NCBI RefSeq assembly: GCF_004006235.1
Contig: NZ_CP034753.1
Coordinates: forward strand, 372,001-436,000
Length of the DNA: 64,000 nucleotides
Direction: 5' to 3'
DNA from: Agromyces sp. LHK192
GTDB taxonomy: Bacteria > Actinomycetota > Actinomycetes > Actinomycetales > Microbacteriaceae
The position numbers were made by a program, and so were the translations under genes. Numbering within the stretch: position 1 is the stretch's first letter; every line of letters starts with the position of its first letter. This document shows positions 25,850 to 34,083 of the stretch, piece by piece. The notes beneath the pieces were generated by a model. That model was given only the letters and a program-made list of their open reading frames with translations, did no database searches and was not told where the DNA came from.

Positions 25850-26042
25850 CGATCGCTGCCGCTGGCCCTCCAACTGGGGGTCGGGCTCGCAGGCCGGGGC
25901 AAACGTTCTCCTGAAAGGATCGACACGGCGGTCGAATCGATTCACTCGCATGGATCGGTGCGGATGCCGCCACCCCCCATCGCCCGGCCCGCACCGCGGG
26001 CGTCGACCGACGTCCCCGCGCGAGCACGACCTGAGGAGTTCC

Positions 26043-27494
26043 ATGCCCCGCAACCGCATCGCCGCCGCGACCATCTCGGCTGCCGCGCTCACCGCGCTCA
26101 TGTGCTCGGCCCCGATCGCCGCGCACGCCGACGGCGCCGACACCGTCAAGCCGGTCATCGCCGACACGGCGTTCGGCACGGTCAAGGGCATCGTCACCTT
26201 CACCGTCACGCAGGCCGAGGATGCCCCGAAGCGCGCATACGTCGAGATCCAGCAGCTCGGCGCCGACGCCAAGTGGAAGAAGCTCAAGGGCCAGGAGTTC
26301 AAGGGCACCAACGAGTTCGCGCTCACCGTCGACACGGCCGCGCTCGCCGAGGGCGTCGCCACCCAGGTCAAGGTGTCGAGCTGGGACCTCAACGACAACC
26401 ACACGAGCAAGACCTTCCCGGTCGTGATCGACCGCACGAAGCCCGTCGCGAACCTGGTCACGCCGGCGACCGGCGGCCCGTTCAACACTTCGACCATCGA
26501 GCTGACCGTCGACGCGACCGACAACCTCGGCCTCGACCGCGTCACGGCGAACGTCTACCAGGCCGGCAAGCTCGTGAAGAGCACCTCGTCGAGCGCGGGC
26601 GGTGCCACCGCGGCGACGCACAGCAAGTCGGTCACGCTGCCCGACGGCGAGTACTCGATCCGCTTCAACGCGTCGGACCTCGCCGGCAGCGTCTCCACGA
26701 CCGGCCAGTTCGCCTTCGAGATCGACACCGTCGCCCCGACCGTGACCCCCAAGGACGAGACCCCCGCCAAGGGCGTCTTCGGGTCGGCGCCGAGCTTCAA
26801 GCTGAGCGACGCGGGCGTCGGTGAGGTCGACTACGTCGAGATCAACGGCGTGAAGAAGGACCTGACGAACAACAAGTGGTCCGACCTCAACACGGGCGGC
26901 TACACCCCCGCACAGGGTGTGAACACCATCGTCGCCGTCGACACCGCGGGCAACCGCAGCGAGCCCGTGACCTTCACGTTCGACTCGGTCGCCCCGAAGG
27001 CCGAGGTGAAGCCCGGCGTCGAAGCCGTCGACGGCGTGTACACGAAGGCCCCGAGCTTCAAGCTGAGCGACGCGGGCATCGGCAAGGTCGACTACCTCGT
27101 GGTCAACGGCGTGAAGAAGGACCTGACCGACAACAAGTGGTCCGACCTGAACGCCGGCGCCTACACCCCGGTGCAGGGGAAGAACACGATCGTCGTGGTC
27201 GACACCGCGGGCAACGCCTCGGAGGTGACGTTCGAGTTCGACGACGTGGAGCCGGTCGTCACGGCGGAGTCCGAGACCTGGGAATCGAAGGAGAGCGGCC
27301 GCTGGGCGGTCACGCTGACGTTCAGCGAGCCCGTCTCGGGTGCATCGCTCGGCCAGGGCTGGTACGGCGACGACACCGTCTACACCAAGGTGTTCTACCG
27401 CGCCAAGACGGTCGATGTCGCATTCACCGACCTCGCCGGCAACCCCGGGTCGTACCCGCTCGTCGTCGACGCGGTCGCGCCCGCAGCGGAGTAG
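26043..27494 (+). CDS. Secreted Ig-like repeat protein
   Basis: The 483-residue protein has a Sec signal peptide ending at AHA (about residue 29). A series of beta-sandwich modules follows with TVAPTVTPK, SVAPKAEVK and DVEPVVT junctions and GxNTIVxVDTAGN motifs, as in bacterial Ig-like (Big) domains of surface adhesins or enzyme accessory regions. Two consecutive modules are nearly identical with an 87-residue period. The ATG has GAGGAG upstream. There is no sortase motif, so it is released or held non-covalently. Confidence 0.8.
   Translation: MPRNRIAAATISAAALTALMCSAPIAAHADGADTVKPVIADTAFGTVKGIVTFTVTQAEDAPKRAYVEIQQLGADAKWKKLKGQEFKGTNEFALTVDTAALAEGVATQVKVSSWDLNDNHTSKTFPVVIDRTKPVANLVTPATGGPFNTSTIELTVDATDNLGLDRVTANVYQAGKLVKSTSSSAGGATAATHSKSVTLPDGEYSIRFNASDLAGSVSTTGQFAFEIDTVAPTVTPKDETPAKGVFGSAPSFKLSDAGVGEVDYVEINGVKKDLTNNKWSDLNTGGYTPAQGVNTIVAVDTAGNRSEPVTFTFDSVAPKAEVKPGVEAVDGVYTKAPSFKLSDAGIGKVDYLVVNGVKKDLTDNKWSDLNAGAYTPVQGKNTIVVVDTAGNASEVTFEFDDVEPVVTAESETWESKESGRWAVTLTFSEPVSGASLGQGWYGDDTVYTKVFYRAKTVDVAFTDLAGNPGSYPLVVDAVAPAAE
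26791..27312 (+). repeat. Two 261-bp in-frame repeats within the Ig-like gene
   Basis: CGAGCTTCAAGCTGAGCGAC starts at 26791 and again at 27052, and the similarity continues through GGCGTGAAGAAGGACCTGAC and CAACAAGTGGTCCGACCT with few changes. The 87-codon period marks a recent domain duplication. The last third of the second unit is less similar. Confidence 0.8.
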
Positions 27495-27682: not shown

Positions 27683-28429
27683 GTGCAAGCACCACCACGT
27701 ACACGTAGGAACCGGACGCCGTACGCGATCATCGGCGGCGCGGCGGTCGCAGCCGCCGCGATCGTCGGCGGCGCCCTGATGATCCCGTCCGTCAGCGGGG
27801 CTGCGGGCGGCGAGGCATCCGCCGCCGAGGAGGTCGCCCGGGTCTCCGAGCGACCGGCGCTCGGCCACGCCCGCGACCCACTGAGCGCCGAGGAGCTGAG
27901 CTATGCGCTCCACCTCGCCACGACGGACGCGAGCCTGCCCGAGGACGTGACGTCCGTCGACGGATCCGACGCGCCGCAGGTGCTGTCGATCGACATCGCC
28001 ACACGCGATGTCGATTCGGATGCCCGCACGGCCGACGTCGTGCTCTACGACTACACGTCGAACCGGGCCTTCCTGCAGGCCGTGAACCTCGCCGACGGCA
28101 CGGTCACGAGCTCGGCGACGCAGGGCGTCCAGCCGCCGCCGAGCGCGGACGAGGTCGACTTCGCGTTCTCCGTCTTCCTCGGCGACACCGTCGCGAGCGA
28201 CGCCGTGCGCGCCGAGTTCGCCGCCGTGACCGGTGACGCGCTCTCCTCGATCGACCAGCTGGGCGTGACCGGCGGCGCATTCGTGCCCGATGCGGGCACG
28301 GTCGGTGCCGATGCCTGCGCCATCGACCGCTGCGTCGAGATGCAGTTCCGCATCCCCGGCGGCGGCTACCTCGACACGACCGGGTTCGTCGTCGACCTGT
28401 CCACCCGCTCCGTCATCGGCATCCAGTGA
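27683..28429 (+). CDS. Membrane-anchored or exported protein, tyramine oxidase subunit B-like
   Basis: The 248-residue protein has a basic N-terminus and one hydrophobic segment (about 14-36), then an exported domain. That domain contains LSAEELSYALHLATTDAS, TADVVLYDYTSNRAFLQAVNLADGTV and a C-terminal two-Cys motif DACAIDRCVEMQFRIPGGGYLDTTGFVVDLSTRSV. This resembles proteins annotated as tyramine oxidase subunit B, found beside copper-amine-oxidase-like genes in actinobacteria. The GTG start has GAGGAGG upstream and its stop overlaps the next gene. The sequence also looks like the N-terminal (N2/N3-like) part of an amine oxidase supplied as a separate chain; that is inference. Confidence 0.6.
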   Translation: MQAPPRTRRNRTPYAIIGGAAVAAAAIVGGALMIPSVSGAAGGEASAAEEVARVSERPALGHARDPLSAEELSYALHLATTDASLPEDVTSVDGSDAPQVLSIDIATRDVDSDARTADVVLYDYTSNRAFLQAVNLADGTVTSSATQGVQPPPSADEVDFAFSVFLGDTVASDAVRAEFAAVTGDALSSIDQLGVTGGAFVPDAGTVGADACAIDRCVEMQFRIPGGGYLDTTGFVVDLSTRSVIGIQ

Positions 28430-28461
28430 AGGGCATGACCTCCGTGAAGGACACGACCTCC
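28426..28461 (+). repeat. 18-bp imperfect tandem duplication at the start of the amine-oxidase-like gene
   Basis: GTGAAGGGCATGACCTCC (28426-28443) is followed directly by GTGAAGGACACGACCTCC (28444-28461), differing at two positions. Each copy carries a GTG and a GAAGG ribosome-site-like element, so the duplication multiplies candidate initiation sites. Confidence 0.8.
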
Positions 28462-30357
28462 GTGAGCGCACGCCTCACGCGATCCATCGCGCTCGCCGCG
28501 ACCGCCGTGGCGGCGTTCGCCGGCCTCGCGCTCGTCCCGGCGACGGCGGCGTCCGCTGCCCCGCCGCCCATCAACTGCTCCGGCGATGCGCTCATCGAGA
28601 AGGAGTTCGATAACGGCACCGCGTGGCAGATGTGCTGGCGCGTCGACAGCAAGAAGGGCCTCGTGCTCGAGCAGGTGGCGGTCAAGGCGCCGGGGGAGGA
28701 CGGCTACCGCCGGGTCCTCGACTCGGTGTACCTGAGCCAACTGCACGTGCCGTACGACACCGGCAAGAACGTCTGGAACGACATCACATCGTACGGCTTC
28801 GGAAACCAGTACCTGCAGAAGCTCAGCCCCGCCGAGTGCGGCGACGGCACGCTCCGCGACGTCGCCCAGACATGGACGACGACCCGCCGCGGCGAGACGA
28901 CGACCTGGATGCGGACCATCCCGGCGCTGTGCATCACCGACACCACCAGCCCGCTGGCCTACCGGTCGCACGAGCAGTCGTGGGGGTCCATCGAGGACGC
29001 ACCGCTGTTCACGGCCGACAAGCAGGGCTTCACGCTCCAGACGATCTCGAAGGTCGACTGGTACGAGTACGCCACGAAGGTCGAGTTCACCGACGAGGGC
29101 GGCATCTCGTTCGACCTCGGTGCCACCGGCGACGTCTCGTACGAGGACTTCGACGCGGACGCGACGACCGGCTGGCCGATCGGCACGGATGCCTCCGCGT
29201 TCGCGGCCTCGCACTGGCACAACGCGATCTGGCGCCTCGACTTCGGTCTCGACGGCCAGGAAGCGATGCAGGTCGAGCAGTACGACTCGGTGGTGGGCGA
29301 GATGGGCGAGAAGACCGAGCTCATGCACACGACGGCGCAGACGATCGCGAATCCCGCGAACCTCGCCCCCGTCGACGACCTCACCTGGTGGCGGGTCGCC
29401 GCGCCGGGCAGCGTCAACGGCGACGGGCACGTCCGCTCGTACGAGTTCGTGTTCCCCGGCTCGCAGTTGTACCAGGCCGACCCGGTCACGCAGCCGCTCA
29501 TCACGGTGACGAACTACAACGCCTGCCAGGAGTACGCGACGAACAACCTCAACCCCGCGTGCACGGAGAAGAACGTCATCGACTACGTCGCGACGTCGGC
29601 CGACCAGTCGCTCACCGACCCGGTCGCGTGGGTGAACAGCGGGTTCCACCACGTCGTCCGCGACGAGGACCAGAGCCCGATGCAGACCCACTGGCAGTCG
29701 TTCTCGATCATCCCGCGCGACTGGACGGCGCAGTCGATGGGCACGCCCGCAGGCCGGTCGTGCATCAACGGCGACCCGGGCGGCGAGATCCACACGGACG
29801 AGCAGCCCTGCGAGCAGCCGACCGAGCCGACCGAGCAGCCGACCGAGCCGACCGAGGAGCCGACCGCGCCGACGGAGCAGCCCACGGAGCCGACCGAGCA
29901 ACCGACCGAGCCGACCGAGCAGCCGACGGAGGGCGCCACCCTCACGCTGTCCGCGACCGAGCTGTCGCCGGGCGAGGAGTTCGACCTGGAAGGCACGGGC
30001 TTCGCGCCGGACGAGTCGGTCGCGGTCGAACTCCATTCCGAGCCGATCCCGGTCGGGTCACTGGCGGCGGATGCCTCCGGCGCGGTCGCGGGCACGCTCA
30101 CCGTGCCGGCAGGGGCTCCGGCCGGGGCGCACCGCGTCGTCGTGACCGGCGCAACCAGCGGCGTCACCGCCGCGGTCGACATCACGGTGCTGAAGGCCGC
30201 AGCCGCAGCCGCATCCGCGTCGTCGTCGGGCAGTGGCCTCGCCAGTACCGGGACGACGATCGCGTGGGGGGCCGGCGGGCTCGCGCTCGCGTTGGTCGCG
30301 CTCGGTATCGCGCTCGTCGTGCGCCGCCGCCGCGCCACCTCGATCACCGCCGAGTGA
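28426..30357 (+). CDS. Divergent copper-amine-oxidase-like surface protein with LASTG sorting signal
   Basis: The 643-residue protein has a signal peptide (about 16-45) and a copper amine oxidase catalytic-domain-like region (about 50-440). It then has a Thr/Glu/Pro repeat spacer (462-502), a small beta domain (about 503-590), LASTG (605-609), a membrane helix and an Arg-rich tail. By manual alignment the general-base Asp is D119 (NDITSYGFG), the topaquinone Tyr would be Y213 in WYEY instead of the usual NYD/E, the copper ligands are H263 and H265 (HWH), and the third His is H408 or H409 before RDEDQSP. LAxTG is the class E sortase signal. The start is uncertain: GTG 28426, ATG 28435, GTG 28444 or GTG 28462. 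Confidence 0.72.
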   Translation: MKGMTSVKDTTSVSARLTRSIALAATAVAAFAGLALVPATAASAAPPPINCSGDALIEKEFDNGTAWQMCWRVDSKKGLVLEQVAVKAPGEDGYRRVLDSVYLSQLHVPYDTGKNVWNDITSYGFGNQYLQKLSPAECGDGTLRDVAQTWTTTRRGETTTWMRTIPALCITDTTSPLAYRSHEQSWGSIEDAPLFTADKQGFTLQTISKVDWYEYATKVEFTDEGGISFDLGATGDVSYEDFDADATTGWPIGTDASAFAASHWHNAIWRLDFGLDGQEAMQVEQYDSVVGEMGEKTELMHTTAQTIANPANLAPVDDLTWWRVAAPGSVNGDGHVRSYEFVFPGSQLYQADPVTQPLITVTNYNACQEYATNNLNPACTEKNVIDYVATSADQSLTDPVAWVNSGFHHVVRDEDQSPMQTHWQSFSIIPRDWTAQSMGTPAGRSCINGDPGGEIHTDEQPCEQPTEPTEQPTEPTEEPTAPTEQPTEPTEQPTEPTEQPTEGATLTLSATELSPGEEFDLEGTGFAPDESVAVELHSEPIPVGSLAADASGAVAGTLTVPAGAPAGAHRVVVTGATSGVTAAVDITVLKAAAAAASASSSGSGLASTGTTIAWGAGGLALALVALGIALVVRRRRATSITAE

Positions 30358-30360
30358 CCC

Positions 30361-30395
30361 GGGGGCGACCCGGCCGCCCGGTCGGGTCGCCCCTT
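30361..30395 (+). terminator. Hairpin between the surface protein and DUF305 genes
   Basis: GGGGCGACCCG pairs with CGGGTCGCCCC around a short GC-rich loop and is followed by TTCC. It lies immediately after the stop codon and may reduce read-through into the DUF305 gene. Confidence 0.7.
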
Positions 30396-30424
30396 CCTCA
30401 CCTCACCGAACCCAGGAGGCCGCC

Positions 30425-31102
30425 ATGCGACGACCGCTCGCCACATCCATCTCGATCGCGGCCGTCGTGCTGGCGAGCGCACTCGGGGTCGGCGTCGTGC
30501 TCGCCGGTGCGCCGCCCGAGGCCGTCGCCGGCGGCGCGGCCGAGGCATCCCGTGCGGGCGGCACTGCGGGCGGCACTGCGGGAGCCGACGGCGCTGCCGC
30601 CGTCTTCGCGGCGGCCCAGGTGGAGCGGGATCCGCTCGGCGACGTGCCGAACGAGGCGGACCTCGAGTTCGCGACGATGATGATCCCGCACCACGCGCAG
30701 GCCGTCGAGCTGTCGCGGATCCTCGCCGCGACCCGGGGGATCGACCAGACCTCCGCGGCCCTCGCCGCGTTCATCGAGCGCGATCAGGGCGCCGAGATCG
30801 TGCGCATGCAGGGGTGGCTCGACGCTTGGCACGAGACCGGCGCGGTCGGGCACGAGCATGGAGGATTCATGTCGGGCATGGCGACCGCCGAGCAGATCGC
30901 CGAGTTCGACGCGCTCGACGGCGTCGCTGCGGAACGTCGATTCCTCGAGCTCATGATCGTGCACCACGAGGGCGCGCTCGCGATGACCAGGGACGCCATC
31001 GCGGCAGGCCGCAACAGCTGGATCCGGGCGCTCGCAAAGCACATCGCGAGCGAGCAGCAGCGCGAGATCGAGGCGATGGTCGCGAGGCTGGAGCAGCTGT
31101 GA
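30425..31102 (+). CDS. Exported DUF305 protein
   Basis: The 225-residue protein has a signal peptide or anchor (about 5-35), an Ala/Gly-rich linker and a DUF305 ferritin-like helical domain. The paired metal-binding motifs are MMIPHHAQAVELS (H89, H90) and LMIVHHEGALAMT (H180, H181), with His and Met residues between them (HETGAVGHEHGGFMSGM). DUF305 proteins occur with copper handling genes, fitting a copper supply or storage role for the adjacent amine-oxidase-like protein; that link is inference. AGGAGG lies upstream of the ATG. Confidence 0.88.
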   Translation: MRRPLATSISIAAVVLASALGVGVVLAGAPPEAVAGGAAEASRAGGTAGGTAGADGAAAVFAAAQVERDPLGDVPNEADLEFATMMIPHHAQAVELSRILAATRGIDQTSAALAAFIERDQGAEIVRMQGWLDAWHETGAVGHEHGGFMSGMATAEQIAEFDALDGVAAERRFLELMIVHHEGALAMTRDAIAAGRNSWIRALAKHIASEQQREIEAMVARLEQL

Positions 31103-31653
31103 GCCGGATCCGCCTCGTCGCGGCCGCCGCCGGCGTGGGGCTGCTGGCGTCGCTCGTTCTGACGGGCGCGCTGCGGTTCGAGGTGTTCCGGCTCGGGTCG
31201 GATTCGATGGCGCCCGCGATCGACGCGGGCGATGTCGTCGTCGTGGAACGCGCCGACGGTGACGCGCTGCGCCGCGGCGACGTCGTCGTCTTCGACGACC
31301 CGGGCGGCTGGGCGGCCGACGTCGAGCGGCTCAGCGGCGAACCGGCGGCGCCGATCTTCGTGAAGCGGGTCATCGGCCTGCCGGGCGAGCGGGTCGCGTG
31401 CTGCGACGAGGCCGGCCGCCTCACCGTCGACGGGGTCCGCCGGGACGAGCCATACCTGGCGGAGCCCGACCGACTCGCGAGCGTGCTCGCGTTCGACGTC
31501 GTCGTGCCGGATGCCTCGGTGTTCGTCCTCGGCGACAACCGCGGCGCGTCGATCGACTCCAGGTACCTGGGGCCGGTTCCGTGGTCGGCGGTCCGCGGCC
31601 TGGCGCGGGTGGTGCTCGACCTGCCGATGTCGAAGACGGATGCCGCGCCCTGA
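31099..31653 (+). CDS. Signal peptidase I (S26 family)
   Basis: The 184-residue enzyme has one N-terminal membrane anchor (about 7-25). The Ser/Lys dyad is S36 in GSDSMAPAIDAGD and K89 in IFVKRVIGLPGERV, and the conserved VLGDNRGASIDSRYLGPVP box comes later. The GTG start overlaps the DUF305 stop by 4 bp with GGAG upstream, so it is translationally coupled. A second signal peptidase inside a surface-protein cassette suggests processing of the neighbouring exported proteins. Confidence 0.92.
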   Translation: MSRIRLVAAAAGVGLLASLVLTGALRFEVFRLGSDSMAPAIDAGDVVVVERADGDALRRGDVVVFDDPGGWAADVERLSGEPAAPIFVKRVIGLPGERVACCDEAGRLTVDGVRRDEPYLAEPDRLASVLAFDVVVPDASVFVLGDNRGASIDSRYLGPVPWSAVRGLARVVLDLPMSKTDAAP

Positions 31654-31694: not shown

Positions 31695-32465
31695 CTAGGT
31701 CCACACCGCCGTGCGGGTCCCGCGATCTCCGCCCGGCTGCGAGAGGCGGTCCGCGGCGTTGAAGAGCGCATCGAGGTGGCTGCGGGCGACCTCGGGGTCG
31801 CCGCTCGGGGTCGCGAGCGCCAGCGCGCCGTGGATGCGGCCACCCCCCGATCGCAACGGAACCGCGATGCATGCCCGAGCCGACGGTCCGGCCTCGGCGT
31901 ATGCGGCGAACCCGACCTCGGCCACGGACGCCGCGATGTCGCGGTGCTCGCGTGCCGTGATGCCCGAGGCGGCCGCGGTCGTGGTCACGGTCATCACGGC
32001 GGCACGATCCGTATGCCCCGCGAAGGGCGGCCCGTAGGCGGCGAGGAGCAGTCGGCCGATCGCGGTCGACCCGAGCTGGAGCCGGGTTCGATCGAGCGAC
32101 CTGAGCGGCATCGTCGGATCCTCGTCGGCGACGACGACCCGGCCGTCGCGATAGCGCACGAGATGCACGGCGGCACCCGTCGCGGCGCGCACCCCTGCCA
32201 CCGTGTCCTGCGTCGGGTCGGCGTGGGCGGGCGCGACCAGGTGCGCGAGTTCGACGACGCGCACCCCGAGCAGGAATCCCGGCAGTTCGGGATGCCGGAG
32301 CAGGTATTCGTCGGCGACGAGCGAGTTGATCAGGCGGTACGCCGTGGCGCGCGGGATCCCGAGCGCTCGCGCGATGCCGTTCGCCGACGCCGCGGGACCC
32401 GACCGCGCGACCTCCTCGAGCACCGCGAGGGTCTGCCCGATACCGCTCCGCCCGGCCGCGCTCAC
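31695..32465 (-). CDS. IclR-family transcriptional regulator
   Basis: The 256-residue protein has an N-terminal winged helix (GQTLAVLEEVARSGPAASANGIARALGIPRATAYRLINSLVADEYL, about 9-53) and a C-terminal IclR effector domain with GSTAIGRLLLAAYGPP and SGITAREHRDIAASVAEVGFAAY. The GTG at 32465 overlaps the stop of the upstream APC transporter gene by 4 bp (GTGA). It therefore likely controls that transporter's operon and senses an amino acid or amine related to the transported substrate. Confidence 0.88.
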   Translation of the reverse strand: MSAAGRSGIGQTLAVLEEVARSGPAASANGIARALGIPRATAYRLINSLVADEYLLRHPELPGFLLGVRVVELAHLVAPAHADPTQDTVAGVRAATGAAVHLVRYRDGRVVVADEDPTMPLRSLDRTRLQLGSTAIGRLLLAAYGPPFAGHTDRAAVMTVTTTAAASGITAREHRDIAASVAEVGFAAYAEAGPSARACIAVPLRSGGGRIHGALALATPSGDPEVARSHLDALFNAADRLSQPGGDRGTRTAVWT

Positions 32466-33967
32466 GACCGTCCTTGTCGCTCGCCGCTCGTCGCGAGCGC
32501 GTCCCGGGCGACAGGGGTGTCGTACACGCCCGTGCTCGCCGCGACGACGGCCCCCCGGCGCAGTCGTACCACATGGATTGCGGTCGCCGCGCCGACCACG
32601 ACGATCAGCACGCCGAGTGCGGCGAGGTCGACGCCCGAGAGCGTCAGTGTCTCGGCCAGGGCGATCGCCCCCAGGATGCCGACGCCGAGCATCGCCGGCC
32701 AGGCCTCGCGAAGGGTGAACTCGCCGATGCCCATCAGGTACGCGACCGCGGCGGCGCTCAGCAGGAGGTAGGCGATGACGAAGCCGAGACCCGAGGCCAG
32801 CGCCGCGGTCGCGTCGAACATGGCCCCGCGACCCGTCGCCGACTCGATCAGCGTGCCCGCTCCGATGAGGACGCCGACGGCCACGGCGGCGACATGGGGG
32901 GTGCCGAACCGGTGGGAGGTGCGGCCGAGCCACGCGGGAAGCACGCCCTCGCGCGCCATCGTCAGCACGAGCCTGACGAGCGCGTTCGTGCAGGCGAGCG
33001 TGCAGGCGATCCAGGACGCGGCGACGACGACCTCGACGACGGTCCCGAGCCAGGGTGCGAGCGCGACCGCGCTGCCCTGGAGGCCCGACGTGCGCCCGGT
33101 CGCGCCGCTCGCGGACGCGGAGACCTCGGCCGCCGCACCGAACAGGTAGACGAGCGCGAGCGCCGCGCCGGTCCACACCAGCGCGCGGGGGACGCTCGCG
33201 AGGGGCCGCCGAGCCTCGGGCCCGAGCGCGGCGCCGCTCTCGAAGCCGACGAACGACATCAGTGCGAGACCGAGTCCCGCCGCGAACGCGCCGACCGACG
33301 GCACGTCGTCGAGATCCGGAACCAATTGACCCAGGTTCCAGCCCGTCGTCGCGAACACGACGAGCGAGAGCGCCAGGATTCCGGAGACCGCCGCGATCTC
33401 GATCACGAGCAGTACCCGCGTGGTGGCTCGTGCACCGACCACGATCACGAGCACGATGACGGCGACGGCGACGACCGTGACGAGCGCGACCATGCCCGGG
33501 TCGGTGGAGGGCCCGCTGCCGGGCGGTGCGGCGGACGCCGGATCGCCCGGCTGGAGCAGGCGAGCGATCCGGCGCGCGCCGCTGTGCAGCGTGTCGATCG
33601 ACATGCCGGCATACCCGGCGGCGATCGCCGCGCCGGCGACGAACCCGAGGATCGGGCCGAGGCCGCGCGTGACGAAGGTGTAGACGCCGCCGGCGGCCGC
33701 GATCCTGCGCGCGAACACGGATGCCGAGCCGGCGACGAGCATGACCACGCCCGCCGCCACGACGAGCGTCGCATAGGCCCAGGTGCCGAGCCCTTCGGCC
33801 AGGCCCGCCTGGGTCAGCAGGACGCCCGCGGGTGCGGCCGCGGCCACGGACTGCGCGACGAGGTCGACCGTGCCGAGCGATCCGCGCCGCAGCCCGTGCA
33901 GCGGCGATGTCGCGCGCAGGCTCACGGCCGGCTGCCGACGGGCGATGGCCTCGCCGAGTGCGCTCAT
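32462..33967 (-). CDS. APC-family amino acid or amine permease
   Basis: The 501-residue membrane protein has about twelve hydrophobic segments. The N-terminal unwound-helix region has AAAAPAGVLLTQAG, followed by GGVYTFVTRGLGPILGFVAG, the family signature, and FVGFESGAALGPEARRP. It should import amino acids or amines. The ATG at 33967 has GGAGGG upstream. It is cotranscribed with the IclR regulator. Substrate cannot be read from sequence; the amine-oxidase-like block nearby makes an amine possible. Confidence 0.88.
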   Translation of the reverse strand: MSALGEAIARRQPAVSLRATSPLHGLRRGSLGTVDLVAQSVAAAAPAGVLLTQAGLAEGLGTWAYATLVVAAGVVMLVAGSASVFARRIAAAGGVYTFVTRGLGPILGFVAGAAIAAGYAGMSIDTLHSGARRIARLLQPGDPASAAPPGSGPSTDPGMVALVTVVAVAVIVLVIVVGARATTRVLLVIEIAAVSGILALSLVVFATTGWNLGQLVPDLDDVPSVGAFAAGLGLALMSFVGFESGAALGPEARRPLASVPRALVWTGAALALVYLFGAAAEVSASASGATGRTSGLQGSAVALAPWLGTVVEVVVAASWIACTLACTNALVRLVLTMAREGVLPAWLGRTSHRFGTPHVAAVAVGVLIGAGTLIESATGRGAMFDATAALASGLGFVIAYLLLSAAAVAYLMGIGEFTLREAWPAMLGVGILGAIALAETLTLSGVDLAALGVLIVVVGAATAIHVVRLRRGAVVAASTGVYDTPVARDALATSGERQGRS

Positions 33968-34083
33968 GCCCGACCCTCCGAATCCTCGCAAGGAGGCTAC
34001 GGAGGGCCGGTTTCACGCCTGGCGCGCGGACGTTTCGATCGTGTGTCGCCGTGCGGGACGCCGCGAGTGCCGCGCCGACCCGA

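Follow-up and report, generated by a model that had tools for sequence, protein, structure and literature searches.

A putative exported copper amine oxidase encoded in two pieces, with a WYEY cofactor motif, in Agromyces sp. LHK192

The window analysed here, 64,000 nucleotides of the Agromyces sp. LHK192 genome (contig NZ_CP034753.1, positions 372,001 to 436,000), carries on its forward strand four consecutive open reading frames (ORFs), as the original prediction had described. These encode a small protein termed subunit B, a catalytic subunit resembling the copper amine oxidases (CAOs), a DUF305 protein and a signal peptidase I. The first two genes probably specify a single exported, quinone-forming CAO made in two pieces, with subunit B providing domains D2 and D3 and the catalytic subunit providing domain D4; a probability of about 0.72 is assigned to this reading. 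It is supported by homology, predicted folds, gene order, near-obligate pairing of the two genes, invariance of the catalytic residues and N-termini of the export type. Sequence and predicted fold suggest an intact enzyme that works as a CAO. It belongs to the PF01179 superfamily, is genuine and conserved, and represents a variant of a familiar enzyme type that seems not to have been studied. No description of such a cassette, in which a CAO with a sortase tail is accompanied by DUF305, was found in the open-licence PMC literature.

The catalytic subunit matches PF01179 over residues 66–436 with 104.3 bits (Pfam cut-off 27), and this match together with structure prediction supports the CAO-like D4 fold that had been proposed for it. 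It misses the cut-off of the NCBIfam family NF008559 (68.9 bits against 651). Alignment places D119, Y213, H263 and H265 in the roles first given to them by hand; of the H408/H409 pair put forward for the third copper ligand, it selects H409 and not H408. With the gate residue Y110, these make up the residues of a classical topaquinone (TPQ) CAO. The WYEY motif reported in place of NY(D/E) is likewise present, at residues 212–215. The published TPQ cofactor consensus (PMC3382800) is not followed in the window, which reads Lys209-x-x-Trp212-Tyr213-Glu214, nor are D2, D3 and D4 united in one chain as in the classical enzymes, D2 and D3 being encoded by a separate gene. Judged by sequence, the split WYEY clade is related to the classical TPQ oxidases, and it is not filed as an ordinary member because it departs from the cofactor consensus and is not made as one chain.

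The catalytic residues are strictly retained. An alignment (A1) was made of the window fragment with 82 of the 120 listed homologues, out of 224 in total; its 83 rows are 41–86% identical to the window. All seven catalytic residues fall among the 36 invariant positions of 399 columns, which bears out their proposed retention; the probability of this by chance is approximately 3e-8, a figure that ignores the frequent conservation of residues of catalytic types. The position held by Thr in the cofactor consensus is Lys in 76 rows and Arg in 7, and is Gln in some Streptomyces-type loci. A cross-link between Lys209 and Tyr213, like that of lysine tyrosylquinone, was rejected as the general cofactor since Arg and Gln also occupy position 209.

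A clade with a split gene and a WYEY motif

The distribution of the family was surveyed with PF01179 in 296 genomes of the class, 90 of which had a match. Full matches, at 470–561 bits, number 76; another 30, in 30 genomes, score 103–151 bits, and a single match at 183 bits is a fragment at a contig end. The window belongs to the divergent group at 103–151 bits. The motif was read in 30 of the 76 full (canonical) matches and in all 30 low-scoring ones. Canonical proteins have NY(D/E) in 29/30 cases and VYDY in one (locus L104), and the divergent proteins have WYEY in 26/30 and WYTY in 4/30. The equivalents of Y110, D119, C138, C169, Y213, H263, H265, H409, E414, D415 and M419 are kept at all 60 loci, whereas D333, H335 and P418 are found at 30/30 divergent and 0/30 canonical loci. 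WYEY is present in 120/120 listed homologues, the window's own included; the altered motif is thus real, but it is the signature of a clade rather than a peculiarity of the window protein. At one further locus (L157) a canonical CAO is spread over two adjacent frames, a B-like part and D4, which may reflect gene breakage or an error in sequencing.

A scan of contigs recovered 485 loci encoding a relative, and the counts on 80 loci given below refer to the best 80 of these. This sample overlaps with the 30 divergent loci, which include the window and of which four have identical counterparts among the 80. Alignment A3 combines 55 of the 80 loci, nine further proteins and the window. In the tree, a branch with support 99/99 sets the 54 split sequences apart, and the 30 canonical sequences are grouped with 99/98. 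Long branches are flagged in this tree, and the grouping of WYEY against WYTY reaches a support of only 42/83. The WYTY proteins, with Thr after the Tyr, form a branch of the split clade (L136, L143, L144 and L145; family f23). The genome of Microbacterium yannicii PS01 has two split cassettes, which belong to different branches (L003 and L029).

Subunit B has no Pfam family above cut-off, and no NCBIfam family was over its cut-off for the B proteins tested. It aligns along its full length with D2 and D3 of CAOs, while the catalytic chain has no D2 or D3 of its own; on this sequence evidence B is the half of a CAO that comprises D2 and D3, and its description as a separate subunit holds. A B gene is found at 29 of the 30 divergent loci, and at all 80 best loci it is an ORF of its own, located on the same strand 14–443 bases ahead of the D4 match. 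The exception is L141, whose D4 gene, with WYEY, falls on a long branch and has no B gene in the 5.9 kb around it. The term ‘subunit B’ in the original prediction presumably stems from the annotation name ‘Tyramine oxidase subunit B’; this phrase was not found in the open-licence PMC literature, and a search for annotated subunit B on plasmids gave no match. Positions 155 and 156 of HPAO form part of its amine channel (PMC3382800). Because both lie within the span covered by B (17–207), B probably shapes substrate access, by analogy with that enzyme.

Both products appear to be exported. N-termini with a hydrophobic segment occur in 117/120 split catalytic subunits and 28/28 B proteins, compared with 1/30 canonical ORFs and 1/120 fused WYRY proteins (see below), as counted by a simple hydrophobicity threshold and, for the canonical proteins, from longest-ORF starts. 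Wall anchoring through the LASTG tail, as originally suggested, is backed by a match to a sorting-signal family (see Table) and by the class E sortase that the genome was found to encode (NF033747, 225.6 bits against a cut-off of 160); PF04203 finds this one sortase, of class E, in the genome. Only the catalytic subunit of the window pair, and not B, carries a sorting tail. Since wall-anchor-like ends occur in 25/120 split catalytic subunits, anchoring is a local option in the clade.

Proposed mechanism and alternative readings

In the proposed mechanism, the two exported pieces would assemble outside the membrane, probably as B2A2, given that the CAOs known so far form homodimers. Cu(II) would be bound by H263, H265 and H409, and oxidation of Y213 in situ would yield a quinone of the topaquinone type. 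D119 would then take the proton as a primary amine is converted to the aldehyde, with ammonia and H2O2 as the other products. Trp212 occupies the position of the Asn that holds the quinone ring, and for this reason cofactor biogenesis and ring motion are expected to be altered. The DUF305 protein may carry copper to the site and the signal peptidase may process the exported proteins. In this genome, attachment of the catalytic subunit to the wall would fall to the class E sortase.

The original prediction offered a choice between an oxidase and a copper-binding surface pseudo-oxidase, and the second half of that choice has become the less likely. A pseudo-oxidase would use the fold and the copper site for binding, adhesion or copper storage, with Trp212 blocking quinone formation. 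Such a role is consistent with the alteration of two consensus positions near the precursor Tyr in all relatives, with the poor cofactor formation of Asn mutants of known CAOs and with the adjoining DUF305 copper protein. However, D119, Y110, Y213 and M419 are conserved without exception, just like the three His residues (83/83 rows and 30/30 divergent loci). An active quinoprotein with changed ring control is favoured on these sequences, because a protein that had kept only copper binding could do without the base, the gate Tyr and the Met, and a pseudo-oxidase is considered unlikely. No pseudoenzyme CAO was found in the open-licence PMC literature. A locus that perhaps does hold a truly degenerate amine oxidase is L159, whose 549-aa frame has a B-like N-terminal part, HxH and, by eye, EYVL at the cofactor motif, with no D4 profile match.

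At the other extreme, the protein might be a TPQ amine oxidase of the ordinary kind, its split gene and its change from Asn to Trp having arisen by neutral drift and having no bearing on function. All catalytic residues are kept, as this would require, and the canonical CAO at L104 has VYDY, so that Asn is not absolutely required in nature. Drift is nevertheless improbable as an explanation: the invariance of Trp in 83/83 rows that are 41–86% identical to the window, and at 30/30 divergent loci, points to selection, and D333, H335 and P418 are clade-specific as well. It has also been considered that B is an export or maturation chaperone with a D2/D3-like fold, which assists the catalytic chain and afterwards dissociates from it. 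B has a hydrophobic N-terminal segment of its own (28/28), the sorting tail is confined to the catalytic subunit, and one locus (L141) is without B; against this, the full-length alignment of B to D2+D3, the lack of these domains in the catalytic chain and the near-perfect pairing make a chaperone very unlikely. A bolder version of the two-piece oxidase, which can be put forward only tentatively, is that the clade forms a separate class of CAO. This would be an obligate two-subunit extracellular quinoenzyme in which Trp, packing against the cofactor derived from Tyr, replaces the ring-guiding Asn, with a different cofactor cycle (a locked ring, or a Trp-stabilised radical or quinone), perhaps large or surface-bound amines as substrates, and a dedicated DUF305 copper carrier.

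The Asn before the precursor Tyr is described, in PMC3382800 and PMC9491219, as strictly conserved and as keeping the quinone in a productive position. A natural clade with Trp in its place and the other catalytic residues kept is therefore a ready-made experiment on how the quinone cofactor is built and guided. The gene split, in turn, makes the action of D2 and D3 in trans testable, and if copper delivery by DUF305 proves true, a family of unknown function will gain an enzyme partner.

Layout of the cassette and its neighbours

The positions of the genes and of the main residues are collected in the Table. An overlap of the first two genes at GTGA had been proposed; it is doubtful, and was rejected as the true start, because close relatives begin the catalytic gene past the B stop (by 11 bases in L005 and 14 in L003). 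Homologues of the catalytic subunit begin MKKLTR-like, and the corresponding start in the window is GTG 28462. On these two grounds the gene probably starts there, 32 bases past the B stop. In L014, a distant relative, the catalytic gene could start on an ATG overlapping the B stop. The GTGA overlap claimed for the DUF305 and signal peptidase genes is in the sequence, and recurs there in L003, L005, L008 and L027. Just upstream of the cassette, positions 25980–27494 of the forward strand encode a secreted-type protein with weak bacterial immunoglobulin (Ig)-like domains, a relative of which was not found in the 80 best loci at E 1e-10.

Table. Features of the cassette and adjoining genes, in window coordinates
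Feature	Position	Strand	Remarks
Subunit B gene	27683..28429	+	248 aa; N-terminal hydrophobic segment, then CAO domains D2+D3 (~residues 57–248)
Catalytic subunit gene	28426..30357	+	643 aa as listed; likely start GTG 28462; order: signal segment, CAO domain D4, Pro/Glu/Thr repeat, Ig-like domain, LASTG wall-sorting tail
D119 codon, catalytic base equivalent (Asp298 in AGAO)	28780..28782	+	hhalign; invariant 83/83 and 60/60
WYEY codons 212–215; Trp for consensus Asn, Tyr213 at quinone precursor position	29059..29070	+	alignment
H263-W-H265, first two copper ligands	29212..29220	+	alignment
H408-H409; H409 as third copper ligand (His592 in AGAO)	29647..29652	+	alignment
LASTG sorting signal, hydrophobic stretch, Arg-rich tail	30238..30354	+	NF058582 32.5 bits, cut-off 27
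Exported DUF305 protein gene (CopM relative), possible copper carrier	30425..31102	+	225 aa; PF03713
Signal peptidase I gene	31099..31653	+	184 aa; TIGR02227; overlaps DUF305 gene by GTGA
IclR-type regulator gene adjoining cassette, possible regulator	31695..32474	-	PF09339
Amino-acid permease gene adjoining cassette, possible amine-related transporter	32462..33991	-	PF00324 43.6 bits

The third product matches PF03713 (DUF305) with 130.1 bits (cut-off 27) and the CopM family NF049983 with 78.2 bits, below the cut-off of 90. The fourth matches PF10502 (signal peptidase S26) with 107.6 bits and TIGR02227 with 106.3 (cut-off 47); the genome has one other PF10502 gene. Just downstream of the 80 best loci, DUF305 is found in 45 and a signal peptidase in 25; both partners occur in 21, DUF305 only in 24, the peptidase only in 4 and neither in 31, with two of the loci offering less than 2.6 kb of downstream sequence. 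Among these 80, DUF305 adjoins 13/13 Microbacterium and 13/13 Actinoplanes loci and 0/25 of those labelled Streptomyces. Neither partner was seen at the 30 canonical loci (0/30), where the flank searched was only ~1.5 kb and so covers little. The four genes had been presented as a unit: DUF305 and the peptidase are indeed recurrent partners, but they were rejected as core parts because the 25 Streptomyces-labelled loci have neither (one of them, L034, offers only 111 bases downstream). The peptidase was likewise rejected as a mere companion of DUF305, given the 4/80 loci with the peptidase alone and the 24 with the reverse. Relatives of the permease occur in 25/80 loci and of the IclR regulator in 26/80. 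These neighbours fit an amine-related role and do not name the substrate.

Relation to known systems

The same Agromyces genome encodes a canonical CAO (G000:C1:1286665) with the motif NYDY, adjoined by an amino-acid permease and an aldehyde dehydrogenase. Such neighbours are as expected for intracellular amine catabolism, and the split enzyme is the exported counterpart. A single-chain relative of the split clade may be represented by the fused WYRY proteins (A5; for example in Rubrobacter metagenome-assembled genomes, P0149), which share with it Trp-Tyr at the cofactor position, HxH and an N-terminal D2-like part. They differ in being one chain of ~530 aa with Arg after the Tyr and an export segment in 1/120, and they stand beside the split clade in the tree with a support of only 96/77, on long branches. 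The fused family (L154:495-2075, L163, P0149–P0268) has 2696 matches and comes from metagenomes and Rubrobacter-type actinobacteria; among the 120 listed, the motif is WYRY in 72, YYRY in 6 and unread by the pattern in 42.

CopM of Synechocystis and the window DUF305 protein are both exported DUF305 proteins with HH motifs. CopM binds copper (PMC4335983), which makes a copper-supply role for the window protein plausible but unproven; the latter scores below the CopM cut-off, and its copper role is that of a candidate only.

The canonical TPQ CAOs of PF01179, such as AGAO, ECAO and HPAO, share with the catalytic subunit the D4 fold and, by alignment, the three His, the base Asp, the gate Tyr, the precursor Tyr, the Met and the disulfide Cys, and they share with B the D2+D3 fold. 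They consist of one chain rather than two exported gene products (identity to AGAO is ~20%), and have Asn and Thr in the cofactor consensus where the split clade has Trp and Lys, Arg or Gln. A counterpart at the cofactor is AGAO N381A (PDB 7wir, 7wis), which also lacks the Asn before the precursor Tyr. This mutant still forms TPQ, 180-fold more slowly, and has a 160-fold lower kcat (PMC9491219). By analogy with it, loss of the Asn would slow the cofactor without abolishing it; AGAO N381A is a laboratory mutant with Ala at this position, whereas the split clade carries a natural Trp.
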